This document shows positions 499 to 63,385 of a DNA stretch of 64,000 bases, piece by piece. Source of the stretch: Streptomyces sp. NBC_00490 (GTDB taxonomy: Bacteria; Actinomycetota; Actinomycetes; Streptomycetales; Streptomycetaceae). Made by a program: the position numbers and the translations under genes. Every line of letters starts with the position of its first letter. Position 1 is the stretch's first letter. The DNA lies in NCBI RefSeq assembly GCF_036013645.1, contig NZ_CP107869.1, positions 4,092,001 through 4,156,000 of the forward strand, read 5' to 3'. Under the pieces are notes generated by a model that worked only from the letters and a program-made list of their open reading frames with translations, did not search any database and had not been told where the DNA came from.

Positions 499-1668
499 AT
501 GCACCAGTCAGCAACCGACCCTCGGCCACGGGTCCTTCACCTCACACAACCCGTGGAGGGCGGGGTCGCCCGAGTCGTGACGGACCTGGTGCGAGCCCAG
601 CTCGCGGCCGGGTTGCAGGTAGCGGTGGCCTGTCCGGACGGCGCCTTCGCCGACGGTCTGCGGGAACTGGGGGCGGACGTACGGCGATGGCGGGCGACCC
701 GGTCGCCAGGGCCGTCGCTCGTCGGGGAGGTACGGCGTCTCGCTCAGGTGATCGAAGAGGTGCGGCCCGAACTGGTGCACGCACACAGTGCGAAGGCCGG
801 TCTGGCCGGGCGGCTCGCGGTGCGGGGACGGGTGCCGACGGTGTTCCAGCCGCACGCCTGGTCGTTCGAGGCGGTCGGCGGGGTCACCGCGGCACTCGCA
901 CTGAAGTGGGAACGGTGGGGGGCGCGTTGGGCCTCCCGGGTGGTGTGCGTGAGCGGCGCGGAGCGCACGACCGGTGTACGCGCCGGGATCGCCGGGCGGT
1001 GGAGCGTCATCCCCAACGGCATCGACCCCGCCCGCTTCCACCCCGCCGCCGTGGGCACCGTACGCGCGTCACTGCTGCCGGACGTCGATCCGCAGGCCCC
1101 GCTCGTCGTGTGCGTGGGACGGCTGTGCCGGCAGAAGGGGCAGGACGTCCTGCTCGACGCGTGGGAGGCGGTGCACCGGCGGGCGCCGCGGGCACGGCTC
1201 GTGTTCGTCGGCGACGGACCCGACCGCGCCCGGCTCGCCGCGCGCGCACCGCAGTCGGTGCTGTTCGCCGGGGCCGCCACCGACACCGCCCCCTGGTACC
1301 AGGCCGCCGACCTGGTCGTCCTGCCCTCGCGCTGGGAGGGCATGGCGCTCGCCCCGCTGGAGGCGATGGCGTGCGGGCGGCCGGTCGTGATGTCCGACGT
1401 GGACGGCGCCCGGGAGAGCCTGCCGCCGCATCTCGCGCCCCGCTGCCTCGTACCGCCGGGTGATCCGGCATCGCTCTCCGCCGCCGTCGCCGAGCTGCTC
1501 CTCGATCCGCTGCTGTGCGAGTCGCTCGGCCATCAGGGGCGCCACCACGTCCTGTCCACGCACGACGTGCGGCACACGACCGAGGCGGTGGCGGGTCTGT
1601 ACCGCGAACTGCTCGGCGCCGTGGGACCCGTCGTGCCCACCGAGTACAGGGAGTCCATCCACTCGTGA
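499..1668 (+). CDS. GT4-type glycosyltransferase, first gene of the exopolysaccharide operon
   Basis: A 389-residue cytoplasmic GT-B glycosyltransferase. The N-terminal half has the acceptor-side motif LVHAHSAKAG, the middle has VIPNGID, and the C-terminal nucleotide-sugar domain carries GRLCRQKGQ and the EX7E pair at Glu280 and Glu288 (EGMALAPLE), which are hallmarks of family GT4. Length is normal for the family. The ATG is preceded by GAGGAA with 8-base spacing. The stop overlaps the GTG of the next gene by 4 bases, so translation is probably coupled. It would add a sugar from a nucleotide donor to the lipid-linked repeat unit; donor and acceptor cannot be read from sequence. Confidence 0.93.
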   Translation: MHQSATDPRPRVLHLTQPVEGGVARVVTDLVRAQLAAGLQVAVACPDGAFADGLRELGADVRRWRATRSPGPSLVGEVRRLAQVIEEVRPELVHAHSAKAGLAGRLAVRGRVPTVFQPHAWSFEAVGGVTAALALKWERWGARWASRVVCVSGAERTTGVRAGIAGRWSVIPNGIDPARFHPAAVGTVRASLLPDVDPQAPLVVCVGRLCRQKGQDVLLDAWEAVHRRAPRARLVFVGDGPDRARLAARAPQSVLFAGAATDTAPWYQAADLVVLPSRWEGMALAPLEAMACGRPVVMSDVDGARESLPPHLAPRCLVPPGDPASLSAAVAELLLDPLLCESLGHQGRHHVLSTHDVRHTTEAVAGLYRELLGAVGPVVPTEYRESIHS

Positions 1669-3089
1669 CCGCCGAAAGTACCGTCCCCTCGCCCGGCGGG
1701 CAGCCACGGGATCACGGATTCTCGCCCGTCTCGGTCATCCCGTCGCGCGGTGCCGCCGGCGGCTTCCGCTTCCCGCACCGCCGTCCGCAGCCCCGGCCCG
1801 CCTCGCCGGTGCCGCTGCTCGCCGCGGATCTGGCCGCCGCGCTGCTCGGCGCCCTCGCGCTCACCGGGACCGCACACCATCCGCTGCTCGCGGCCGTGCT
1901 GGTGTCCGCGTCGATGCTGCTGCGCCCGCACCTGCCCCGCGCGGTGCCGGGTGTCCTGGACGAACTGCCCGCCGTCTGCGGCCGGATCGCGGTGTCCTGG
2001 CTGGCGCTCGGCGCGCTGGTCGCCGCGTACGCCCCGCAGCACGCGCTGCCCGCCGACACGCTCGCCCTCGGTTTCCTGCTCCAGTCGGCGGCGGCCTGCG
2101 CGGTCCGCGGCGCCGTGCACTGGCGGCGCCGCACGGTGCTGCGGAACCGCCCGCGCGCCGCCCTCGTCATCGGCCCCGCGACGACCGCGCAGCGCGTGGC
2201 CGCGGGCATCCTGCGCCACCCGCGCTGCGGAGTACGCCCGGTGGGTGTCGTCACCGAGACACCGGACGGCAGCGAGGGCCTGCCCGTGCTGACGACCGGT
2301 CAGGAGGTCGAGCGGGCGCTCATCCAGAACGGCGTACGGGACGTCCTGGTCGTGCATCCGTCCGTACGGTCCCAACAGGGGCCGCTGCTGCGGGCGTTGG
2401 CCGAGTCGGGCTGCGTGGTGTGGGAGGTCGACGCGGACTCCCCGTCGTACGCCACCCGCGACCAGCTCGCCGGATTCGCCTGCCGGCGCCTGGACATGGG
2501 CGGACGGCGGCGCGGCAGCTTCGGCAAGCGGATGCTGGACGTGCTGGTGGCCGGGACCCTGTTGCTGCTGGTCAGCCCGCTGCTGCTGGTGTGCGCGGTG
2601 GTGCTGCGGCTGACCGACGGACGCGGTGTGGTGTTCCGTCAGGAACGCATCGGCAAGGACGGCCGCCCCTTCACGCTGCTGAAGTTCCGCACCCACCGCC
2701 CGGTCGACGAGCACGAGTCGGCGACCCGCTGGAGCGTGGCGGACGAACGCCAGATGTCGTGGTTCTGCCGCTTCCTGCGCAAGACGTCCCTGGACGAGCT
2801 GCTGCAACTGTGGAACGTCGTCTGGGGCGACATGAGCCTGGTGGGACCGAGGCCCGAACGCCCGTACTTCGTCGCGAACTTCAGCCAGACCTACCCCGGG
2901 TACGCGGCCCGCCACCGGATGCAGACCGGCATCACCGGCCTCGCCCAGATCCACGGTCTGCGCGGCGACACCTCCATCGAGGACCGGGCCCGCTTCGACA
3001 ACGCGTACATCGACAACTGGTCGCTGTGGCAGGACATCTGCATCCTGGCCCGCACCGCCGCCGCTCTCGTGCGTCCGACGGGGAGTTGA
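1665..3089 (+). CDS. Polyprenyl-phosphate sugar-phosphate transferase (WbaP/WcaJ type), initiating enzyme
   Basis: A 474-residue membrane protein that would transfer a sugar 1-phosphate from a nucleotide sugar to undecaprenyl phosphate and so start repeat-unit assembly. Residues 1–285 hold hydrophobic helices and a nucleotide-binding-like CoA_binding_3 region. From about residue 287 the conserved bacterial sugar-transferase domain begins with KRMLDVL and a membrane hairpin, then FRQERIGKDGRPF, LLKFRT, KTSLDELLQLWNV and the signature SLVGPRPERP. The frame is open 50 codons further upstream, but the GTG at 1665, overlapping the previous stop and preceded by AGGGAG, fits best. Family identity is secure; the sugar is unknown. 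Confidence 0.95.
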   Translation: MTAESTVPSPGGQPRDHGFSPVSVIPSRGAAGGFRFPHRRPQPRPASPVPLLAADLAAALLGALALTGTAHHPLLAAVLVSASMLLRPHLPRAVPGVLDELPAVCGRIAVSWLALGALVAAYAPQHALPADTLALGFLLQSAAACAVRGAVHWRRRTVLRNRPRAALVIGPATTAQRVAAGILRHPRCGVRPVGVVTETPDGSEGLPVLTTGQEVERALIQNGVRDVLVVHPSVRSQQGPLLRALAESGCVVWEVDADSPSYATRDQLAGFACRRLDMGGRRRGSFGKRMLDVLVAGTLLLLVSPLLLVCAVVLRLTDGRGVVFRQERIGKDGRPFTLLKFRTHRPVDEHESATRWSVADERQMSWFCRFLRKTSLDELLQLWNVVWGDMSLVGPRPERPYFVANFSQTYPGYAARHRMQTGITGLAQIHGLRGDTSIEDRARFDNAYIDNWSLWQDICILARTAAALVRPTGS

Positions 3090-3091
3090 CC

Positions 3092-4423
3092 ATGGACCAC
3101 GTGCGCAGATGCGCGCCGGTGCTCCCGGTGGTGGCGGTGATCGCCCTGCTGGGACTGCCGATCGGGCCGGGCGGCGAGGGGGGCGCGGGGCCCGCCGACG
3201 CGGTCTCGGCGCTGGTGGTGCTCTACTGCGGGGTCCTCCTGGTACGGGACCGGCGGCGCCCCTTGTCGCGCACGGCGGCCGTGGTGCTGGGCCTGCCGGT
3301 GCTCGGGCTGGCGATCGCCGCCGCGGGAGCCTCCTCACCGGGTGCCGGGATCACCGGTATGGGCCGCTATCTGCAGATCTTCGTCCTCGTCCCGGCCGCG
3401 GTGCTGCTGCTGATCCGGGGCCGGGGCGACTTCCGTGTCCTGGCCTGGTCCTTCGTGGGGCTCGCCCTGTGGCAGGGGGCGATCGGGGTGCACCAGTTCC
3501 TGACCGGGACCGGTGCCTCGTACCAGGGCAAGGAGATCCGTGCCGTCGGCACCTTCGGGGCGCAGGACGTGATGGGCATGGCGACGGTCGTGTGCTTCGG
3601 GCTGGTGTGCGCGGTGGGGCTGGCGCTGGGCCGGACCCCCGTACGGCACCGGGCGGTCGCCGCCTGCTGCGCGCTGGCCCTGCTGGTGCCGCTCGCCCTG
3701 TCCTTCAGCCGCGGGGCGTGGATCGCCACGGCGGTCGCGTGCACGGTGCAGCTGATGCTGGCCGGGATGCGGCGGGCGCTGCGGGTGGCGGCCGTGATGA
3801 TGGCCCTGGGCGTGATCCTGGTGGGCGGTTTCGGGGTTGGTTCGGCGATGCTCCAGGAGCGGATCAGCAGCATCACGCAGGTCACCGACGCGCCCGACCA
3901 GTCCGTCACCGACCGGTACACCATGTGGGCGGCGGCGGTCGGCATGTGGCGTGAACAGCCTTTGACCGGCGTGGGGTTGAAGGGCTTCCCCGAACACCGG
4001 GACGCGCACGCCTCACTGGCGCTGTCCGCCGGCAGCGACACCGAGGGCGCGGGCGCGGCCTTCCGCAAGCAGCCGCTGCTCTCCCCGCACAACATGTACC
4101 TCCTGGTCCTCTCCGAGCAGGGCCTCATCGGCCTCCTCGCCCTCGCGGGCGGCTGGCTGGCCCTGCTGGTGTGCGGGCTGCGGGGGCTGGCACGGGTACG
4201 CCGGTCCGGTCCGGGGCTCGACTGCGCCCTGGTCGCCTGCGGCCTCCTGGTCTGGCAGCTCACCGACTTCGCGTACGCCGACATCGGCGGACCCTCGACG
4301 GTCCTGACAGCGGTGTGCTTCGGCCTCGTGGCCTGGTGGGCCCTGCTCGGCAACGCCCCCGAGCAGCCCGCGCCGACCCCGGCCCCGGCCCCCGACCGCG
4401 CCGAGGAGGCGGCAACCCGATGA
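3092..4423 (+). CDS. O-antigen ligase/polymerase (Wzy/WaaL) family membrane protein
   Basis: A 443-residue polytopic protein with about ten to twelve hydrophobic helices. It has the family landmarks LSFSRGAWIA in the middle and, after a long extracytoplasmic loop, HNMYLLVLSEQGLIG beginning at His333. In Wzx/Wzy pathways this family polymerises lipid-linked repeats or ligates the chain to an acceptor. The ATG is 2 bases after the previous stop with GGGAG 6 bases upstream. Its stop overlaps the following ATG (ATGA). Given a Wzz-like protein and a flippase in the same operon, polymerase is the better guess than ligase, but the fold alone does not decide. Confidence 0.9.
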   Translation: MDHVRRCAPVLPVVAVIALLGLPIGPGGEGGAGPADAVSALVVLYCGVLLVRDRRRPLSRTAAVVLGLPVLGLAIAAAGASSPGAGITGMGRYLQIFVLVPAAVLLLIRGRGDFRVLAWSFVGLALWQGAIGVHQFLTGTGASYQGKEIRAVGTFGAQDVMGMATVVCFGLVCAVGLALGRTPVRHRAVAACCALALLVPLALSFSRGAWIATAVACTVQLMLAGMRRALRVAAVMMALGVILVGGFGVGSAMLQERISSITQVTDAPDQSVTDRYTMWAAAVGMWREQPLTGVGLKGFPEHRDAHASLALSAGSDTEGAGAAFRKQPLLSPHNMYLLVLSEQGLIGLLALAGGWLALLVCGLRGLARVRRSGPGLDCALVACGLLVWQLTDFAYADIGGPSTVLTAVCFGLVAWWALLGNAPEQPAPTPAPAPDRAEEAATR

Positions 4424-6996
4424 CGGTGACGCCGCCCCGGACTCCCGGGGACGCGGCAGGCCCGCCGCGCGGAAGAAACGCGGGGCCCATCGCCGCATCC
4501 GCGGTTTCGCCGAGCGCCCCGGGCGGCCATGACGCGAAGCCCGCCGAGACATCCGGACGGCCCTTGGCCTCCCAGAGCCGGCGGACTTCCGGGGTTTCAT
4601 CGAGCACGCCGAACGGACGGGGCGCACGGCCTGATGAGGCTACGGGGCAGGCCATGGCTGTCCGCAACACCCGGGCTTCCGCGGACCCGACGGACTCCCC
4701 GGGCGGCCAGGACGCAGGGACCGGCGAGCCTTCAGGGCGGACCATGATCGCTCGGGGCACCCGGGCCTCCGCGGACCCGACGGACTCCCCGGGCGGCCAG
4801 GACGCACGGGCCGGCGAGCCTTCAGGGCAGGCCATGGCCGTCCGGAACACCCGGGCTTCCGCGGACCCGACGGACTCCCCGGGCGGCCAGGACGCAGGGA
4901 CCGGCGAGCCTTCAGGGCGGACCATGATCGTTCGGGGCACCCGGGCCTTCGCGGTTCCGCCGAGCACCCCGGGCGAGCGGAACGCGGAGCCCGCCGAGGC
5001 ATCCGCACGGGCCTTGGCCTCGCAGAGTCAGCGGGCTTCCGGGGTTTCCCCGGGCATGCCGAAGGGACCGGGCGTGGAGTCGGCCGAGGCTTCCGGGGGG
5101 CCGTTGGAGTCCACTGTTTCCGGGAGGGGCGAGTGGCTCGTAGCGCCCGGAGGCTCCGGGGAGTTCCTCAGTGGTGGGGATTCCGGGGCCCGCGAGGCTC
5201 CGGCCGGCCCCCGCGTCTCCAGCGCCTCCCCGGCTCACCCGCAATCCCGTACACCGGCCGCTCCCCCGGCCCCGGACGCTTCCGCGCCCTCCCGGCACCC
5301 GCGCGCCGTCCGCGCCCCCCGCCCGTCCCGGGCTCCCCGCCCCTCCCGTACCGCGGGACGCGTCCCCGCTCTCCCATCGGCCCGCCCCGCGGGTCCCCCC
5401 ACCACTCCCCCCGGGGACAATCCCGACCTCGCCCCCGTCTCCCGCGGCTTCCTGGCCAAGGCCACCCTCGTCACCGCGGTCCTCTCCGTCGCCGGGGCGA
5501 TCCTCGGGCTCGCGCGGGACCAGGCGCTGGCGCGGCTCTTCGGGGCCGGGATCGAGACGGACGCCTTCCTGGTGGCGTGGACGATCCCGGAGTTCGCGTC
5601 GACGCTGCTCATCGAGGACGGGCTGGCGTTCGCGCTGGTCCCGGCGTTCAGCCTGGCGCTGGCGCGGCGGGCGCAGGGCGCTCCCGGGGATCCGGTGCGC
5701 TCCCTGGTCGTCGCCACGCTGCCCCGCCTCTCCCTGGCCTTCGTCGCCGTGTCCGCGCTGATCGCCGCCACCGCCCCCTACCTCGTCGAAGCGCTGGCCC
5801 CGGGCCTGCCCGACCCCGCTCTCGCCGTCGACTGCACCCGGCTCGCCGCGGTCTGCGTGCTGGGCTTCGGGCTCGCCGGGTACTGCAGCGCCGCACTCCG
5901 CGCCCACCGCAGGTTCCTCGCACCGGCCGCGATCTACGTGGCGTACAACACCGGCATCATCACGACGATGTTCGTCCTGGGCGGGCAGTGGGGCGTGCGG
6001 TCGGCGGCGATCGGGGTCGCGGTCGGCGGCGGGCTGATGGTCCTCGTGCAGCTGCCTTCCTTCGTACGGCAGTTGTGCCGCAAGCAGGTCGCTCAGCCGG
6101 AGTCGGGCGCGAGCGGCGACCGTGCCGTCACCGCCGCCCTCGTCGCCACCGTCCTCCTCTTCGCCCTGTGCAGGCAGTCCCAGACCCTCATCGAGCGCTA
6201 CCTCGCCTCCACCCTCGACGCCGGCGCCATCTCGCACCTGAACTACGCGCAGAAGGTCGCCCAGATCCCGATGACCCTGTCGATGATGCTGTGCACGGTC
6301 ACCTTCCCGGTGGTCGCGCGAGCCCTCGCCGACGGCGACATCGAGCGGGCCCGCAGCCGCGTGGAACGGGACCTGGCGCTGGCCACCTGCATGGTGCTGC
6401 TCGGCGCCGCCACGGTGATCTCCTGCGCCCCGCAGATCATCGAACTCCTCTTCCAGCGAGGCGCGTTCACCGCCCGGGACACCGCGGCCACCGCGGACGT
6501 CATGCGCGTGTACGCCCTCGGTCTGCTCGGCCAGACCCTGACCGGCGTGCTCGTCCGGTCGTACTTCTCCGCCGCCCGCCCCAGCTGGTACCCGGTCGCC
6601 GCGATGACCGCAGGCATCGTCGCCACCTCCTGGATCGGCGCCTGGACGGTGGGCCCCTGGGGCGTCTGCGGCATCGCCGCCGCCAACGCCGTCGGCATCA
6701 CCGTGACCGCCGTACTGCTGCTGGCCGGTATGGGCCCCAGAAGCGTCCCGATCCGCAAGCGGGGCGCGCTGCGCGAGCTGAGCAGGCCCGTCCGTGCCGC
6801 GGTGGTCGCGACGATCGCCGGGACCTTCGTCGCCGGGCAGGTGCCGTCCGCCGTGCCGGGGCTCGCCGCGGGCGGGGCGACCGTCGCCGCCGTCTTCGTC
6901 CTGCTCGCCTGGGCGCTGGACGCCCAGGGCGTCGTACCCGCACTGAGATCCCTACGCTCCGTCACACGAAGGCTGACGCATGGCCGCTGCCGTTGA
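4420..6996 (+). CDS. MurJ/MviN-family lipid flippase with a repetitive N-terminal extension
   Basis: An 858-residue protein in two parts. Residues 1 to about 339 are low-complexity, rich in Gly, Ser, Pro, Arg and Ala, and contain seven 30-residue repeats followed by a Pro/Arg-rich stretch. From about residue 340 a normal MOP-superfamily MurJ core of about 519 residues follows: a first helix ending ILGLARDQALARLFGAG, then TDAFLVAWTIPEF, and about 14 helices. MurJ proteins flip lipid-linked saccharides across the membrane. Here the gene sits among polysaccharide genes, so it probably flips the exopolysaccharide repeat rather than, or as well as, lipid II. The start overlaps the previous stop as ATGA; the 3' end overlaps the next gene by 17 bases. 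Confidence 0.9.
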   Translation: MTVTPPRTPGDAAGPPRGRNAGPIAASAVSPSAPGGHDAKPAETSGRPLASQSRRTSGVSSSTPNGRGARPDEATGQAMAVRNTRASADPTDSPGGQDAGTGEPSGRTMIARGTRASADPTDSPGGQDARAGEPSGQAMAVRNTRASADPTDSPGGQDAGTGEPSGRTMIVRGTRAFAVPPSTPGERNAEPAEASARALASQSQRASGVSPGMPKGPGVESAEASGGPLESTVSGRGEWLVAPGGSGEFLSGGDSGAREAPAGPRVSSASPAHPQSRTPAAPPAPDASAPSRHPRAVRAPRPSRAPRPSRTAGRVPALPSARPAGPPTTPPGDNPDLAPVSRGFLAKATLVTAVLSVAGAILGLARDQALARLFGAGIETDAFLVAWTIPEFASTLLIEDGLAFALVPAFSLALARRAQGAPGDPVRSLVVATLPRLSLAFVAVSALIAATAPYLVEALAPGLPDPALAVDCTRLAAVCVLGFGLAGYCSAALRAHRRFLAPAAIYVAYNTGIITTMFVLGGQWGVRSAAIGVAVGGGLMVLVQLPSFVRQLCRKQVAQPESGASGDRAVTAALVATVLLFALCRQSQTLIERYLASTLDAGAISHLNYAQKVAQIPMTLSMMLCTVTFPVVARALADGDIERARSRVERDLALATCMVLLGAATVISCAPQIIELLFQRGAFTARDTAATADVMRVYALGLLGQTLTGVLVRSYFSAARPSWYPVAAMTAGIVATSWIGAWTVGPWGVCGIAAANAVGITVTAVLLLAGMGPRSVPIRKRGALRELSRPVRAAVVATIAGTFVAGQVPSAVPGLAAGGATVAAVFVLLAWALDAQGVVPALRSLRSVTRRLTHGRCR
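4501..5130 (+). repeat. Seven tandem 90-bp (30-codon) repeats inside the MurJ-like gene
   Basis: Units begin at 4501, 4591, 4681, 4771, 4861, 4951 and 5041, all codon-aligned. Units 3 and 5 differ at only two of 90 bases. Unit 4 shares its first third with these and its last 30 bases, nearly unchanged, with unit 2. Unit 6 resembles unit 1, and the first part of unit 7 resembles unit 2. The order therefore suggests duplication of two-unit and five-unit blocks. The reading frame is kept throughout and the encoded segment is predicted to be unstructured and, as the N-terminus of MurJ, cytoplasmic. Confidence 0.95.
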
Positions 6997-7702
6997 ATCC
7001 GCCCCCGTCCCGTGGATCGCGATGTACCACTCGGTCGGCGACTGCTCCGAGGACCCGTACCGCATCACGGTCACACCCGACCGACTCGACCGCCAGCTGA
7101 CCTGGCTCCGCCGCCGCGGTCTGCGGGGCGTGTCCATGGCCGCGCTGCTGGCCGACCCCAGCCGCAAGGACCTCGTCGGCCTCACCTTCGACGACGGGTA
7201 CGCCGACTTCCTCGACCACGCCCTGCCCGTGCTGCGCGCGCACGACTTCGGGGCCACCCTATTCGTCCTGCCCGGCCGGCTCGGCGGCGACAACGCCTGG
7301 GACCCGCTCGGCCCGCGCAAACCGCTGCTCGACGCCGACGGACTGCGCCGGGCCTGCGAGGCGGGCGTGGAGATCGGCTCGCACGGTCTCACCCACATCG
7401 ACCTGACCGAGGCCGACGACCTGCGGCTCAAGGCCGAGGTCGTCGAGAGCCGGGCCGCGCTGGAGGAGCTGACCGGTGCGCCCGTGAAGGGCTTCTGCTA
7501 CCCGTACGGAACACTCGACCAGCGCGCCGTCGACGCGGTACGGGAAGCCGGATACGCGTACGCCTGCGCCATCGACCCCGGCCACCTCACCGGCCCGTAC
7601 GCCCTGCCCCGGCTGCACATCGGCCAGAACGACACCGCCGTACGCCTCTTCCTCAAGCACCGGCTGCACCGGCTGCGCCGCCGTCCCGTCGAGGGGATCT
7701 GA
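6980..7702 (+). CDS. Polysaccharide deacetylase (CE4 / NodB-like)
   Basis: A 240-residue NodB-homology-domain protein. Motif 1 is TFDDG with Asp71 and Asp72; motif 2 is the metal-binding HGLTH with His135 and His139; motif 3 is the FCYPYG stretch. These supply the catalytic base and the divalent-metal triad for removing N- or O-acetyl groups from glycans. No signal peptide is visible, so it may work on lipid-linked intermediates at the cytoplasmic face or on nucleotide-sugar-derived precursors. The ATG has GAAGG 7 bases upstream and overlaps the MurJ-like gene by 17 bases. The following gene starts 1 base after its stop. Confidence 0.92.
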   Translation: MAAAVESAPVPWIAMYHSVGDCSEDPYRITVTPDRLDRQLTWLRRRGLRGVSMAALLADPSRKDLVGLTFDDGYADFLDHALPVLRAHDFGATLFVLPGRLGGDNAWDPLGPRKPLLDADGLRRACEAGVEIGSHGLTHIDLTEADDLRLKAEVVESRAALEELTGAPVKGFCYPYGTLDQRAVDAVREAGYAYACAIDPGHLTGPYALPRLHIGQNDTAVRLFLKHRLHRLRRRPVEGI

Positions 7703-7703
7703 G

Positions 7704-8849
7704 ATGAAGGCCCTCCACGTCATCACCGGCCTCGGGGTCGGCGGCGCCGAGCAGCAACTGCGGCTGCTGCTGCGGCACCTGCCCGTCGACTGCGACGTCG
7801 TGACGCTCACCAACCCGGGCGCGGTCGCCGACGGGCTCATCGCCGACGGGGTCCGCGTCACCCATCTCGGGATGGCCGGCAACCGCGACCTGGCCGCCCT
7901 GCCCCGCCTGGTCCGCCACATCCGGGCCGGCGGCTACGACCTCGTGCACACCCACCTGTACCGCGCCTGTGTCTACGGCCGGCTCGCCGCGCGGCTCGCG
8001 GGCGTCCGCGCGGTCGTCGCCACCGAACACTCCCTCGGCGACTCGCAGATGGAGGGCCGCAGGCTCACCGCCGGGGTCCGCGGTCTCTACCTGGCCAGCG
8101 AACGCCTGGGCCGCGCGACGGTCGCCGTCTCCCCCACCATCGCCGCCCGTCTGAAGCGCTGGGGCGTGCCCGCCCCCCGTATCGAGGTCGTCCCGAACGG
8201 CATCGACCTGCCCCGCTTCCGCTTCGACGCCCTCCAGCGGCTGCACACCCGCCGCCGCCTCGGCCTGCCCGAGGAGGCGTACGTCATCGGCGGCGTCGGC
8301 CGGCTCACGGCGGCCAAACGCTTCGCCACCGTCATCCGGGCGATGGCCCAACTGCCCGACAATTGCTGGCTGTTGCTGGTCGGCGGCGGCCCGGACGAAC
8401 ACCGGTTGCGCCAGGTCGCCCGTGCGGCCGGGGTCGCCGACCGGGTGCTGTTCACCGGCGAACGCCCCTGCGTTCCCGACGGCTCGCCCGGTCCCGACCT
8501 GCCGTCCCTCACCTCCGCGATGGACCTGCTCGTCTCCCCGTCGCCCGAGGAGGCCTTCGGGCTGGCGGTCGTCGAGGCGCTGGCGTCCGGGCTCCCCGTG
8601 CTCTACAGCTCCTGCCCGGCGATCGAGGACCTGCCCTCGCAGGCGGCCCCCGGCAGCCGCCAGGTCCTGGGCGGCCCCGACGAGTTCGCCCGCGCGATCG
8701 CGGCGGCCCGCACCGAGGGCCCGCGCCCGCGCACCGCCCCGGACGCCGCCCACCACTACTGCATCACCCGCAGCGCCGCACAGCTGATGAATGTCTACGC
8801 GGCCGCGACCTCGTCGCCCACGTCACCCCAGGGAGCCAGTTCCTCATGA
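7704..8849 (+). CDS. GT4-type glycosyltransferase
   Basis: A 381-residue GT-B enzyme, second glycosyltransferase of the operon. It begins with the typical glycine-rich loop HVITGLGVGGAEQQL, has LVHTHLYRACVYG and VVPNGIDLPRF in the linker region, and the donor-domain motif SPEEAFGLAVVEA with the EX7E pair at Glu283 and Glu291. It probably adds a later sugar of the repeat unit. The ATG at 7704 follows the previous stop by one base, and the stop overlaps the next ATG (ATGA). Substrate specificity cannot be inferred. Confidence 0.93.
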   Translation: MKALHVITGLGVGGAEQQLRLLLRHLPVDCDVVTLTNPGAVADGLIADGVRVTHLGMAGNRDLAALPRLVRHIRAGGYDLVHTHLYRACVYGRLAARLAGVRAVVATEHSLGDSQMEGRRLTAGVRGLYLASERLGRATVAVSPTIAARLKRWGVPAPRIEVVPNGIDLPRFRFDALQRLHTRRRLGLPEEAYVIGGVGRLTAAKRFATVIRAMAQLPDNCWLLLVGGGPDEHRLRQVARAAGVADRVLFTGERPCVPDGSPGPDLPSLTSAMDLLVSPSPEEAFGLAVVEALASGLPVLYSSCPAIEDLPSQAAPGSRQVLGGPDEFARAIAAARTEGPRPRTAPDAAHHYCITRSAAQLMNVYAAATSSPTSPQGASSS

Positions 8850-9502
8850 CCGAGAACCCCACCGGACCGCGCCGCCCCGCCACGGTCCTCACCCGCGCCA
8901 GGACGCTCCCGGCCTGGTCCCTGCTCGCGGCCGGTGCCGTCGCCGGGGGAATGCTGGGCGGGGCGTACAGCCTGGCCCAGGCGCCTACGTACACGGCCAC
9001 CAGCTATGTCGTCGCCGTCCCCACCGAGAAGTCCGACCCCGCCTCCGCCCTCGGCTTCGCGCAGGCCTACGGCCGGGTCGCGACCCAGCTCGCGGTGCTC
9101 GGGGACGCGCAGGTGTGGGCGGGTGTCCCGGTCAGGACGCTGCAGTCGAGCGTGCAGACCGCGACCTCGCCGGACGCCCCGATGGTCGCGATCACGGCGA
9201 CCTCCTCGCGCCCCGACCTCGCCGCCGACATGGCCAACGCGGTCGCCCGCGCCCTGACCCGGCACGCGGACACCGCCCAGAGCGCCACCAACGTCGAGCT
9301 CCAGCAGTTCGCCCGCGCCACCAAGCCCACCGAGCCGTCCTCGGCCCCGCCCGCGGTGACCGGGCTGGTCGGGGCGAGCGCGGGCGGACTGCTCGGTGGC
9401 CTGGTGCTGCTGGTGCGGCCGCGACGGGCCGCCGGAGAGCCGGGGCGCCCGGCCCAGGTGCCCGGCCCGGCCGTCGCCGCCGACGCCCACGGCCAGCTGT
9501 GA
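8846..9502 (+). CDS. Small Wzz-like chain-length/co-polymerase membrane protein
   Basis: A 218-residue protein with a hydrophobic helix near residues 18–38 and a second one near residues 172–192 (a Gly/Ala/Leu-rich segment before the Arg-rich end), enclosing an extracytoplasmic region that contains YTATSYVVAV. This two-helix layout is that of Wzz/chain-length determinants and of the YveK/CapA-type regulatory subunit of polysaccharide kinases, but it is shorter than typical Wzz and no tyrosine kinase domain is attached. It likely sets chain length together with the Wzy-like protein. ATG overlaps the previous stop; GGGAG lies 10 bases upstream. The stop overlaps the next GTG. Confidence 0.8.
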   Translation: MTENPTGPRRPATVLTRARTLPAWSLLAAGAVAGGMLGGAYSLAQAPTYTATSYVVAVPTEKSDPASALGFAQAYGRVATQLAVLGDAQVWAGVPVRTLQSSVQTATSPDAPMVAITATSSRPDLAADMANAVARALTRHADTAQSATNVELQQFARATKPTEPSSAPPAVTGLVGASAGGLLGGLVLLVRPRRAAGEPGRPAQVPGPAVAADAHGQL

Positions 9503-14623: not shown

Positions 14624-15457
14624 CTACTGGTGGGCCCCGGCCTGCCTACGGCCCCGCCGGTACAGCACGGCACCGGCCCCGATCATCGCCGCACTGCCGA
14701 CGGAAGCGGCCAGCATGGCCTCGTTGCTTCCGGTGTCGGGCAGCTGGGGCGGCGGACCGTGGGGACCGGGGGACGTGCTGTCCGTGCCGGTCGGCGGGGT
14801 GGGGGTGGGCGTCTCCTCACCGTGACCGGGCGGCGTCGGCGTCGGAGTGGGCGTCGGCGTCTCCTCACCGTGACCGGGTGGCGACGGGGTCGGAGTGGGC
14901 GTCTCCTCGCCGTGGCCCGGTGGCGTCGGCGTCGGCGTGTCGCCGTACCCCGGGGTGTCCCCCGGGCCGCCGGAGCCGCAGTCGTCGCCGTAGGCGGGGT
15001 TGAGTCCGCTGATGACATCCGCCGTGTTCCCGCACGCGTTCACCGGCACCTCGACCGGCGCCTGCGTGTTGTTGCCGGACAGCACACCGGGCGAGCCCTC
15101 CGCGCGGCCGTGCGTCGCGTGCCCGGAGGGGCCGTGGCTCCCCCCGCCGTAGCCGGACTCGTCACCGTAGCCGGAGTCGTCGCCGTACGAGGCGCCGCCC
15201 CTGGGTGAACCCGAGTCGTTCGCACAGGAGTTGCCGAACGCCGGGTTCAACAGGGCGATGACGTCCACGGAGTTGCCGCAGGCGTTGACCGGTACGTCGA
15301 CCGGGGCCTGGACGTCGTTGCCGGACAGGACGCCGGGCGAGCCCTGGGCGGCGCCGTTCGCGTCCGAGTCGGCAAGGGCGGGGCTGCTGCCGCACAGGGA
15401 CAGGATGCTCGTCGCGGCGGCGGCCGCGACCATTCCCCTACTCAGGGTCTGTCGCAA
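14624..15457 (-). CDS. chpA: Long chaplin: two chaplin domains, repeat linker, LPDTG wall anchor
   Basis: A 277-residue secreted hydrophobin-like protein. After a signal peptide ending near ALADS come two chaplin domains, each with SPGVLSGN, a VPVNACGN core and a paired second cysteine. A Gly/Tyr/Asp-rich spacer separates the domains. A linker with repeated TPTP-PPGHGEE units follows, then LPDTG, a hydrophobic helix and an Arg-rich tail, which together form a sortase signal. Chaplins coat aerial hyphae as amyloid fibrils and long ones anchor them to peptidoglycan. The start is TTG at 15457 with AGGAAG 10 bases upstream; the MRQ N-terminus fits long chaplins. The symbol rests on synteny with S. 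coelicolor and could be another long chaplin. Confidence 0.88.
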   Translation of the reverse strand: MRQTLSRGMVAAAAATSILSLCGSSPALADSDANGAAQGSPGVLSGNDVQAPVDVPVNACGNSVDVIALLNPAFGNSCANDSGSPRGGASYGDDSGYGDESGYGGGSHGPSGHATHGRAEGSPGVLSGNNTQAPVEVPVNACGNTADVISGLNPAYGDDCGSGGPGDTPGYGDTPTPTPPGHGEETPTPTPSPPGHGEETPTPTPTPTPPGHGEETPTPTPPTGTDSTSPGPHGPPPQLPDTGSNEAMLAASVGSAAMIGAGAVLYRRGRRQAGAHQ

Positions 15458-61862: not shown

Positions 61863-63266
61863 TCACATGGCCCGGCTCGCGCCGGTCAGTCCGACGGAGA
61901 CGGGGAGGGGGCGGCGCAGGGGTTCGGTGCGTATCGGTGGGGCGGGGAGCGTCGGCCGCGCCTGGCCGGAGTTCTGTTCGAGGTGCGGGCTGCCGAGCAG
62001 GACCGGGCGGGGCGGGCGGGCTCGGTCGACGTCCTGACCGACGGTCTCGGACCCGCCGACCAGGACGGGGCGGGGCGGCCCTACCGCGTCGACGTTCTGA
62101 CCGGCGGCCCCGGGCCCACCCACCAGGACGGGGCGCACCGGCCCCAACCATTCGACTTCCTGCCCGACCGCAGACCGGCCGACCCGGGCGGTACTCAACG
62201 GCTCCACCCGGTCAACGTCTTGCTCAGCCACAGACCGGCCAACCAAGACGGGACCAGCCCGCCGCGCCCGGTCGACGCCCTCAGACCCACCGATCAGGAC
62301 GGGTCGCAGCGACCTCACCCGGTCAACGTCCTGACCGACGGTCTCGGACCCGCCGACCAAGACAGGACCAGCCCGCCGCGCCCGGTCGACGCCCTCACCG
62401 GCAGCCTCAGACGCACCGACCAGGACAGGGGGCAACGACCCCGCACGGTCAACTTCCTGCCCAGCAACCGCCGCCGGGGCGGTGGTCGGGCGGCTGAGCA
62501 AGGTCACGCCGTGGATGGCGGACGCGGCGGCGGTGAGGGCGAGGAGGGTGCCTGTGGGGCCGTAGCGGAAGCCCTCGCCGAGGAGGGTGAGGCCGATGGC
62601 GGCGGCGGTGACGGGGTTGACGAGGGTGAGGAGGGCGAGGGGGCCGCCGAGGCCGTGGCGGTAGGCCTTCTGGGAGAGCAGCAGGCCGCCCACCGCGAAG
62701 GCGACCGTCAGGAGCGCCACCAGCGCCGTGCTCCAGGAGAGCGTCGGGCCGACCGCGAGCTTCTGTGCCAGCGTGGAGCCGGCCCCGGAGGCGATGCCGG
62801 ACGCGGCGGCGACCGCGAGGCCCCCGCGGGCCGAGAGCAGCGTGACGGCCGCGGCGGCGACGAGTGCCACCAGCAGGACCCCGGTGGTGTTCAGGGTGTC
62901 GCCGCGCCCCGAGGCCGTGACGGCCAGCAGGGTCGTCAGCCCGAGGAGGGTGAAGGCCATGCCGTTCCACTGGGTGCCCGAGGTCCGGCGGCCCGAGACC
63001 AGCGAGCCCAGCGGTACCGCGAGCACGAGGCTCAGCGCGCCGAGCGGCTGCACCAGGGTCAGCGGTCCGTAGCGCAGGGCGACCACGTGCAGCAGCGCAC
63101 CGGAGGCGTTGAGGAGCACGGACCCCCACCACCCGCCGCGGGCCAGCGCCCCGCGCACGCTCATGGTGTCGGCGGCGGTCCGCTCCTGGACGACCGCGGC
63201 CGCCGCGTAGCAGATCGCCGAGACCAGGGAGAGGGCCACGGCCAGGAACACCGGAGAACCTGTCAT
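61863..63266 (-). CDS. DMT-superfamily (EamA-like) transporter with repetitive C-terminal tail
   Basis: A 467-residue protein. Residues 1 to about 265 form a membrane domain with about nine or ten helices (first helix MTGSPVFLAVALSLVSAICY), like DMT-type metabolite transporters. From about residue 269 to the end, 199 residues are polar and made of eight tandem 18–21-residue repeats of the form GQxVDRxxxxxPVLVGGSxxx, then a Pro/Arg-rich end. ATG 63266 has GGAGG 9 bases upstream. The substrate is unknown; the tail is not a normal part of the family. Confidence 0.88.
   Translation of the reverse strand: MTGSPVFLAVALSLVSAICYAAAAVVQERTAADTMSVRGALARGGWWGSVLLNASGALLHVVALRYGPLTLVQPLGALSLVLAVPLGSLVSGRRTSGTQWNGMAFTLLGLTTLLAVTASGRGDTLNTTGVLLVALVAAAAVTLLSARGGLAVAAASGIASGAGSTLAQKLAVGPTLSWSTALVALLTVAFAVGGLLLSQKAYRHGLGGPLALLTLVNPVTAAAIGLTLLGEGFRYGPTGTLLALTAAASAIHGVTLLSRPTTAPAAVAGQEVDRAGSLPPVLVGASEAAGEGVDRARRAGPVLVGGSETVGQDVDRVRSLRPVLIGGSEGVDRARRAGPVLVGRSVAEQDVDRVEPLSTARVGRSAVGQEVEWLGPVRPVLVGGPGAAGQNVDAVGPPRPVLVGGSETVGQDVDRARPPRPVLLGSPHLEQNSGQARPTLPAPPIRTEPLRRPLPVSVGLTGASRAM
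61980..62462 (-). repeat. Eight tandem ~63-bp repeats encoding the DMT transporter tail
   Basis: Eight copies of a 54–63-bp unit encode the motif GQxVDRxxxxxPVLVGG. Two copies lack a few codons (for example the junction of repeats 3 and 4), always in multiples of three. A degenerate ninth copy follows. Third and later copies are similar at the DNA level, indicating recent expansion. Confidence 0.9.
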
Positions 63267-63385
63267 CGCGGTCCACCTCCCCATCTGTCGATGTCGATAC
63301 GAAACGGTTTCGTACCGACACACTACGAGGAGGCTTAACGAAACGCAAGCGTTTCTCTAGCTGGGCCGGATTTCCGACACGAACC

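Follow-up and report, generated by a model that had tools for sequence, protein, structure and literature searches.

A seven-unit, in-frame 90-bp repeat array in the N-terminal tail of a MurJ-family flippase of Streptomyces sp. NBC_00490

The DNA analyzed here is a 64,000-nucleotide stretch of Streptomyces sp. NBC_00490 (contig NZ_CP107869.1, positions 4,092,001–4,156,000 of the forward strand; hereafter the window), which contains a gene for an 858-residue flippase of the MurJ/MOP family (4420–6996, + strand) between a gene with a Wzy_C domain and a polysaccharide deacetylase gene. The first 340 residues of the product are an N-terminal extension with seven tandem 90-bp units. This is probably a disordered N-terminal tail, expanded by repeats, of a kind that tolerates wide differences in length and is carried by an exopolysaccharide flippase. 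The evidence favors tolerance over function for the repeats, and among the possibilities raised in the initial annotation, made from the sequence alone, neutral expansion fits best.

The tail begins with a head of 27 codons (4420–4500), the ATG at 4420 being preceded by 5′-GAGGAGG and forming an ATGA overlap in which 4 nt are shared with the upstream stop. The seven 90-bp (30-residue) units follow (4501–5130), delimited by repeat detection, reading frame and a unit profile, and beyond these the reading frame continues through a low-complexity remainder (5131–5439) containing two small arrays found by Tandem Repeats Finder (TRF) within 5263–5348 and a short motif, V/L-P-x-A-R, present here as LPSAR (residues 318–322; 5371–5385). 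The conserved core starts at 5440, in agreement with the 340-residue extension first annotated, and is a membrane domain of many helices (5440–6993), as supported by Pfam, structure alignment, a predicted model and substitution ratios; the stop codon ends at 6996.

The array is in codon register and in the frame of the open reading frame (ORF) at 4420–6996. Sequence identity is 0.69 at a lag of 90 and 0.70 at a lag of 180, compared with 0.45 for the next best among lags of 20–200, and lag-90 identity was at most 0.38 in 200 codon shuffles, such that the seven codon-aligned repeats originally described stand far above their shuffled controls. With a unit divisible by three and lying in frame within an open frame, the array has the form of an amino acid tandem repeat (aaTR). 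As annotated, only 2 of 90 bases distinguish unit 3 from unit 5, and unit 1 resembles unit 6 (75 identical bases of 90), whereas the annotated likeness of units 2 and 7 does not extend over the whole unit (52/90, the lowest of all unit 2 comparisons); only the first half of unit 2 has its best match in unit 7 (31/45), and its last half matches unit 4 (40/45). Among the 237 non-overlapping arrays in a 1.264-Mb sample of the same genome (window included), it has the sixth-highest TRF score; 21 of them have periods of 60 or more, and such arrays are a common product of this genome rather than a rarity.

Other interpretations of this segment were set aside. An antisense ORF (4260–4967) has a higher codon score than the sense frame (0.63 vs 0.52), and just 16 stops fall in one antisense frame of the 144 tails, but the segment that it occupies, from the 3′ part of the polymerase-like gene into the array, is well explained on the + strand. 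On/off phase variation is ruled out since 90 is a multiple of three and changes in copy number leave the frame unaffected. The repeat does not appear to be mobile or shared between genomes: in 391 other Streptomyces genomes, with two candidates scored in each, the matches listed are short (23 to 117 bases). In a separate DNA search, none of the listed matches outside the own genome extends beyond query position 563, ~15 codons into the gene.

The history of the array can be read in part from the relative WM6386, whose core has 96% DNA identity to that of the window and whose locus carries four units, on its left contig. Taken in order against window units 1, 2, 6 and 7, these share 75, 74, 70 and 74 of 90 bases respectively, while window units 3–5 (4681–4950) share no more than 65 of 90 with any WM6386 unit and are thus most simply regarded as later gains in the window lineage. 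A gain of three units in that lineage, rather than a loss in WM6386, would be the simplest account, and the last step may have been a two-unit duplication, given that the array has a 180-bp period at 4645–4975 (93% match in TRF) and that units 3 and 5 are almost identical. The in-frame expansion first proposed is borne out by the difference between four and seven units together with the wide spread of lengths among orthologues (below), and it is real and probably recent.

A profile of the unit was scanned against 271 tails, for which the best of 1355 shuffled tails scored 6.8. The profile finds seven copies in the window, four good copies plus one 6.9-bit fragment in WM6386, two copies each in P0003 and S3(2020), one in P0002 and a partial copy in P0001, the counts for P0001–P0003 and S3(2020) being minima because their annotated starts lie inside the tail or a contig ends there. 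Weak single copies are present in P0009 (13.7 bits) and P0004 (11.7 bits), with a 7.0-bit fragment in P0092. Good copies appear to be confined to the clade of the window.

The DNA at window 3900–5445 is matched at E≤1e-60 in 269 of 393 Streptomyces genomes, its own included, and tails were recorded in two samples of orthologous loci. The first comprises the best 80 of 205 relatives, 68 of which yielded tails, giving 69 with the window (L083 lacks a start); these are 30–340 residues long, with a median of about 50. The second comprises 89 loci (29 from the top of the DNA-match list and 60 from lower down), 86 of them with a core match and 84 with tails (L237 and L242 lack a start), which are 19–392 residues long with a median of 55.5. 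The samples overlap, such that the 153 tails represent 144 distinct ones, with lengths from 19 to 395 residues and a median of 53.5. The end point here is the first core residue matched, which makes some tails as much as 14 residues longer than in the sample-2 values (395 rather than 392 for the longest). Of the 144, 44 are at least 80 residues long and ten at least 200. Two sample-2 tails are longer than that of the window, whose array is the highest-scoring. TRF arrays are present in 57 of the 144 tails and in 34 of the 44 with at least 80 residues, and in the 69 loci of sample 1 tandem repeats account for 28.5% of tail bases, compared with 1.1% of core bases and, in the two flanks, 1.7% and 2.5%. 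The units themselves differ between species (33, 36, 39, 63, 72, 96 bp and others).

Relatives with very different tails at the same place argue that the tail is mostly free to change: eight of those listed, with tails beginning MxVT and core identities of 86–93%, have tails from 38 to 224 residues. On a quick tree of the cores, a tail length of 80 residues or more (24 of 89 rows; P0001 and P0003 were labeled long although their annotated starts are internal to the tail, and rows lacking a length were scored as not long) requires 13 label changes, at least ten of which are forced by starred branches. DNA matches between sample-1 tails of at least 80 residues are mostly among close relatives (L008, L010 and L070; L030 and L040), with two short matches beyond these (L010/L034 and L018/L050). 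The label changes and the near restriction of DNA matches to close relatives point to independent, lineage-specific origins of the arrays. The variation among relatives on which the initial annotation had staked its proposal is strong in length, and conservation is limited to one short motif. The tail of L036 (S. fumigatiscleroticus) has a seemingly duplicated gene start with a hydrophobic stretch resembling a first helix ahead of 36- and 33-bp arrays, and this stretch could change the topology.

The region is hard to assemble, as in 11 of the 80 sample-1 loci (L006, L007, L009, L016, L021, L025, L028, L029, L048, L049 and L080) the contig runs out within the tail or at the edge of the core; in six further loci (L027, L046, L058, L061, L068 and L084) the contig ends upstream at some other point of the 6-kb flank. 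An assembly artefact in the repeat number is nonetheless extremely improbable for the window, which lies inside a 10.57-Mb contig of a two-contig genome, and has seven units that differ in sequence and are of a family that WM6386 displays independently.

Start and frame are retained through these changes in length. The 4-nt overlap of the start with the upstream stop is present in 67 of 69 tails in sample 1 and 76 of 84 in sample 2, and the commonest of the 69 beginnings are MTVVPS (17), MTVTPP (10) and MTVTPS (8). The coding frame has no stop in the 144 tails (11339 codons per frame, first codons omitted), compared with 123 stops (in 89 tails) and 63 stops (in 41 tails) in the other forward frames and 38, 16 and 82 in the antisense frames. 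Periods are divisible by three in 67 of 73 tail arrays and in 55 of the 57 best tail periods. The start overlap and the stop counts bear on a rival reading in which the tail is usually untranslated, with the true start downstream, either within the array or beyond it, and the array as intergenic filler. The poor codon score of the array, several in-frame ATG, GTG and TTG codons within the extension, and the annotated starts of P0001, P0002 and P0003, the closest proteins, inside the tail would agree with this. It is improbable, however, given the widespread overlap, the 5′-GAGGAGG ahead of 4420, and a frame that stays open for as many as 395 codons, in contrast to the interrupted other forward frames; the three annotated starts are probably start-call errors.

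The units show little of the constraint seen in the core. In the paired units of the window and WM6386, 67 of 360 bases differ, distributed 26/21/20 over codon positions 1/2/3, whereas in the core 60 of 1554 differ (18/8/34). The ratio of nonsynonymous to synonymous substitution rates (dN/dS) is 1.33 for the units (bootstrap 0.75–2.54), compared with 0.27 for the core and 0.29 for the upstream polymerase-like gene, and the paired units are without sign of purifying selection. Short tails have a ratio of nonsynonymous to synonymous differences (pN/pS) of 0.84 against 0.28 in their cores (six independent pairs) and a core-like level of synonymous change.

What is kept in the tails, apart from start and frame, is the V/L-P-x-A-R motif. 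A search for [VL]Px[AT]R finds it in 55 of the 69 tails (shuffles: mean 1.3, maximum 5), and admitting I as well gives 94 of 144 (mean 3.4 and maximum 9 on shuffling), shared ancestry being ignored in both comparisons. In the 32 sample-1 tails of 45 residues or fewer, P is present in 31, A in 30 and R in 30. The motif is situated a median of 23 residues from the core (no more than 45 in 48 of 55), and its DNA varies, with 44 distinct sequences in the 55 tails, suggesting that it is conserved at the protein level.

A near-invariant motif held at the protein level, and repeats that recur in the flippase gene of several lineages, could also reflect a selected tether in which length and composition are tuned, the motif-bearing tail docks an operon partner (the polymerase, a chain-length protein or a glycosyltransferase) and the repeats set its reach or affinity. 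This seems unlikely given that 32 of 69 tails are too short to hold a long array, that close relatives differ from 38 to 224 residues, and that the units paired in order lack purifying selection. Less likely still is a genus-wide version, in which a membrane-near V/L-P-x-A-R docking motif sits on a linker reset by new in-frame minisatellites and tail length tunes the coupling of export to polymerization; if true, strains would differ in polymer length or amount.

Several observations weigh against a neutral, length-tolerant tail. The bootstrap range of the units' dN/dS leaves room for positive selection or mild constraint, and their dS (0.173) is twice that of the core (0.083), such that the ratio may be disturbed by conversion between units or by wrong pairing. 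The pairing itself rests on order, as by identity unit 6 is marginally nearer to V1, the first unit of WM6386 (73/90), than to its partner V3 (70/90). The WM6386 assembly is a draft in which the locus is broken within the tail, and its count of four could reflect collapsed repeats. Arrays touch the tail in only 26 of 69 loci and are the best of the locus in 11, and the tree groups long tails together more than shuffled labels do (13 changes compared with a mean of 21.4). The stop-free coding frame is partly a matter of construction because tails were recorded only if an open start was found, and one antisense frame holds just 16 stops. Divisibility of the period by three is also common elsewhere (347 of 392 arrays in the rest of the loci and 76% of the genome-sample arrays), and the period alone therefore says little. 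The codon score is 0.52 in the array compared with 0.76 in the core and 0.63 in one antisense frame. Similar repeats of Borgs have, moreover, been argued to be under strong selection (PMC9879509).

With these reservations, length tolerance with neutral expansion remains the preferred reading, and the following course of events would account for the data. A single ancestral unit would have multiplied to about four copies and later to seven, through slippage during replication or through unequal recombination in GC-rich DNA, and such arrays may arise repeatedly. Since the downstream membrane domain must be translated, only in-frame changes would survive. The tail would be cytoplasmic, a side presumed from MurJ topology, and tolerated at nearly any length, its functional parts being the translation start and the V/L-P-x-A-R segment ahead of the first helix, and the core would probably carry a lipid-linked sugar unit across the membrane (a Wzx role).

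The annotated disorder of the N-terminal domain is supported in kind. The tail is rich in A/P/G/S/R/T, and a predicted model has no secondary structure in residues 1–340/341 and helices from 342, with block scores of 28–38 in the predicted local distance difference test (pLDDT) over residues 1–340, although the whole model is weak (mean pLDDT 50). Nothing was found in support of the suggested scaffolding, phosphorylation or FHA/PASTA control of the tail, none of which was the object of a direct test: apart from weak single copies the unit profile is confined to one clade, the differences between units are spread evenly over codon positions, and Pfam searches of the flippase give only MurJ and, below cut-off, MatE, with no pseudokinase domain. 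A phospho-regulated tail, with Ser and Thr of the units as kinase targets read by an FHA protein, would suit the tail's content of 12% Ser and 7% Thr and has a precedent in mycobacterial MviN, in which PknB phosphorylates the C-terminal tail of a pseudokinase domain and recruits FhaA (PMC12599244). It is very improbable here, because the precedent concerns a C-terminal pseudokinase part that has no Pfam match in the window flippase and the unit is hardly found outside its clade.

The core was annotated as that of an otherwise normal MurJ, which is accurate at the level of the family only. Residues 370–801 match Pfam MurJ with 200.4 bits (curated cut-off 27.4), placing the protein in the superfamily, and the core aligns with solved MurJ structures over about 440 residues (103 bits). 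The NCBIfam MurJ equivalog TIGR01695, however, scores 218.7 bits, below its cut-off of 235.55, while a paralogue in the same genome (L001) passes with 510.2 bits. Functional residues of Escherichia coli MurJ were abandoned as a means of discriminating the paralogues, several being absent in both in the alignments.

The neighboring genes, all on the + strand, are those of a polysaccharide operon. Upstream are a glycosyltransferase of families 4 and 1 (499–1668; Pfam), an initiating sugar-phosphate transferase with an approximate start (1608–3089; Bac_transf, 198 bits) and an O-antigen ligase/Wzy-like polymerase (3092–4423; Wzy_C, 70.5 bits), which overlaps the flippase start by 4 nt. Downstream are the polysaccharide deacetylase (6980–7702; Polysacc_deac_1, 98.6 bits), a second glycosyltransferase of families 4 and 1 (7704–8849; Pfam) and an open frame (8363–9502), the 3′ part of which may encode a Wzz/chain-length-determinant-like protein; its match to NCBIfam TIGR01006 is weak (22.4 bits, cut-off 296) and it has no Pfam match. 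Because the flippase misses the equivalog cut-off that its paralogue passes and has Bac_transf, Wzy_C and glycosyltransferase genes beside it, it is likely to be the flippase of an exopolysaccharide cluster with a Wzx role. In S. coelicolor the chain-length-type protein Q9KYG0 adjoins a glycosyltransferase and a polysaccharide deacetylase and was linked to polysaccharide export (PMC3924187).

The paralogous MurJ also has a tail, of ~210 residues and without units of the 90-bp type. Among 120 listed relatives of the paralogue (core identity 89–100%), 117 have tails of 196–256 residues (mean 221, standard deviation 13.5) and the three other records have tails of 25–39. The annotated generalization that MurJ cores begin within a few residues of the start does not apply here; a low-complexity tail is usual on both MurJ proteins, and of the two, only the exopolysaccharide one shows strong change in length.

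Repeats also occur elsewhere in this genome. A leftwards-transcribed gene (61863–63323, − strand) encodes a DMT-transporter-like protein (NCBIfam DMT_1, 28.3 bits, below the cut-off of 50) whose C-terminal part includes a 63-bp (21-residue) repeat; it is another membrane protein with a tail built of repeats. A chaplin gene (14624–15457, − strand), with two ChpA-C matches and an LPXTG anchor, has a Thr/Pro spacer built from 24–48-bp repeats, and outside the window (L145, 2501–3114) an 87-bp array of about 7 copies adjoins a sugar-kinase-like frame.

Tails of 19 to 395 residues on the same gene, mostly with the same start, constitute a natural series for asking whether length in the disordered tails of transporters is selected or is neutral ballast, with the five-residue motif and the length-constrained paralogue of the same genome as controls. 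The conserved motif is the part of the tail worth testing. Repeat-built tails are also suggested to break short-read assemblies and to mislead gene-start calls. A search of the literature by title and start of abstract found no paper concerning this tail.

Compared with known systems, the protein shares its superfamily with the MurJ/MviN lipid II flippases, and its core aligns with their solved structures, but it differs in missing the equivalog cut-off, in its polysaccharide operon, and in the presence of another MurJ in the genome that passes. It resembles Wzx flippases in its operon context, with Wzy-like, sugar-transferase, glycosyltransferase and weakly Wzz-like genes nearby, although its sequence is MurJ-type and its substrate is putative. 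Mycobacterial MviN under FhaA control is likewise a MurJ protein with a part foreign to the flippase core, but there the addition is a C-terminal pseudokinase with a phospho-tail, rather than an N-terminal repeat tail without a Pfam domain (PMC12599244). The array also resembles the coding satellites of prokaryotes, in which long units are mostly multiples of three; the source is a genome survey, in which S. coelicolor has 38 satellites, and the flippase gene is not among the parts of it consulted (PMC6749651). The Borg aaTRs are mostly perfect and argued to be strongly selected, whereas the older units of the window are diverged, neutral-looking and on a bacterial chromosome. In both, the repeats are in frame, independent and fast-changing, have units divisible by three and make disordered regions, predicted as such for the window, and those of Borgs are often in membrane or extracellular proteins, with one conserved hotspot with TolA (PMC9879509).

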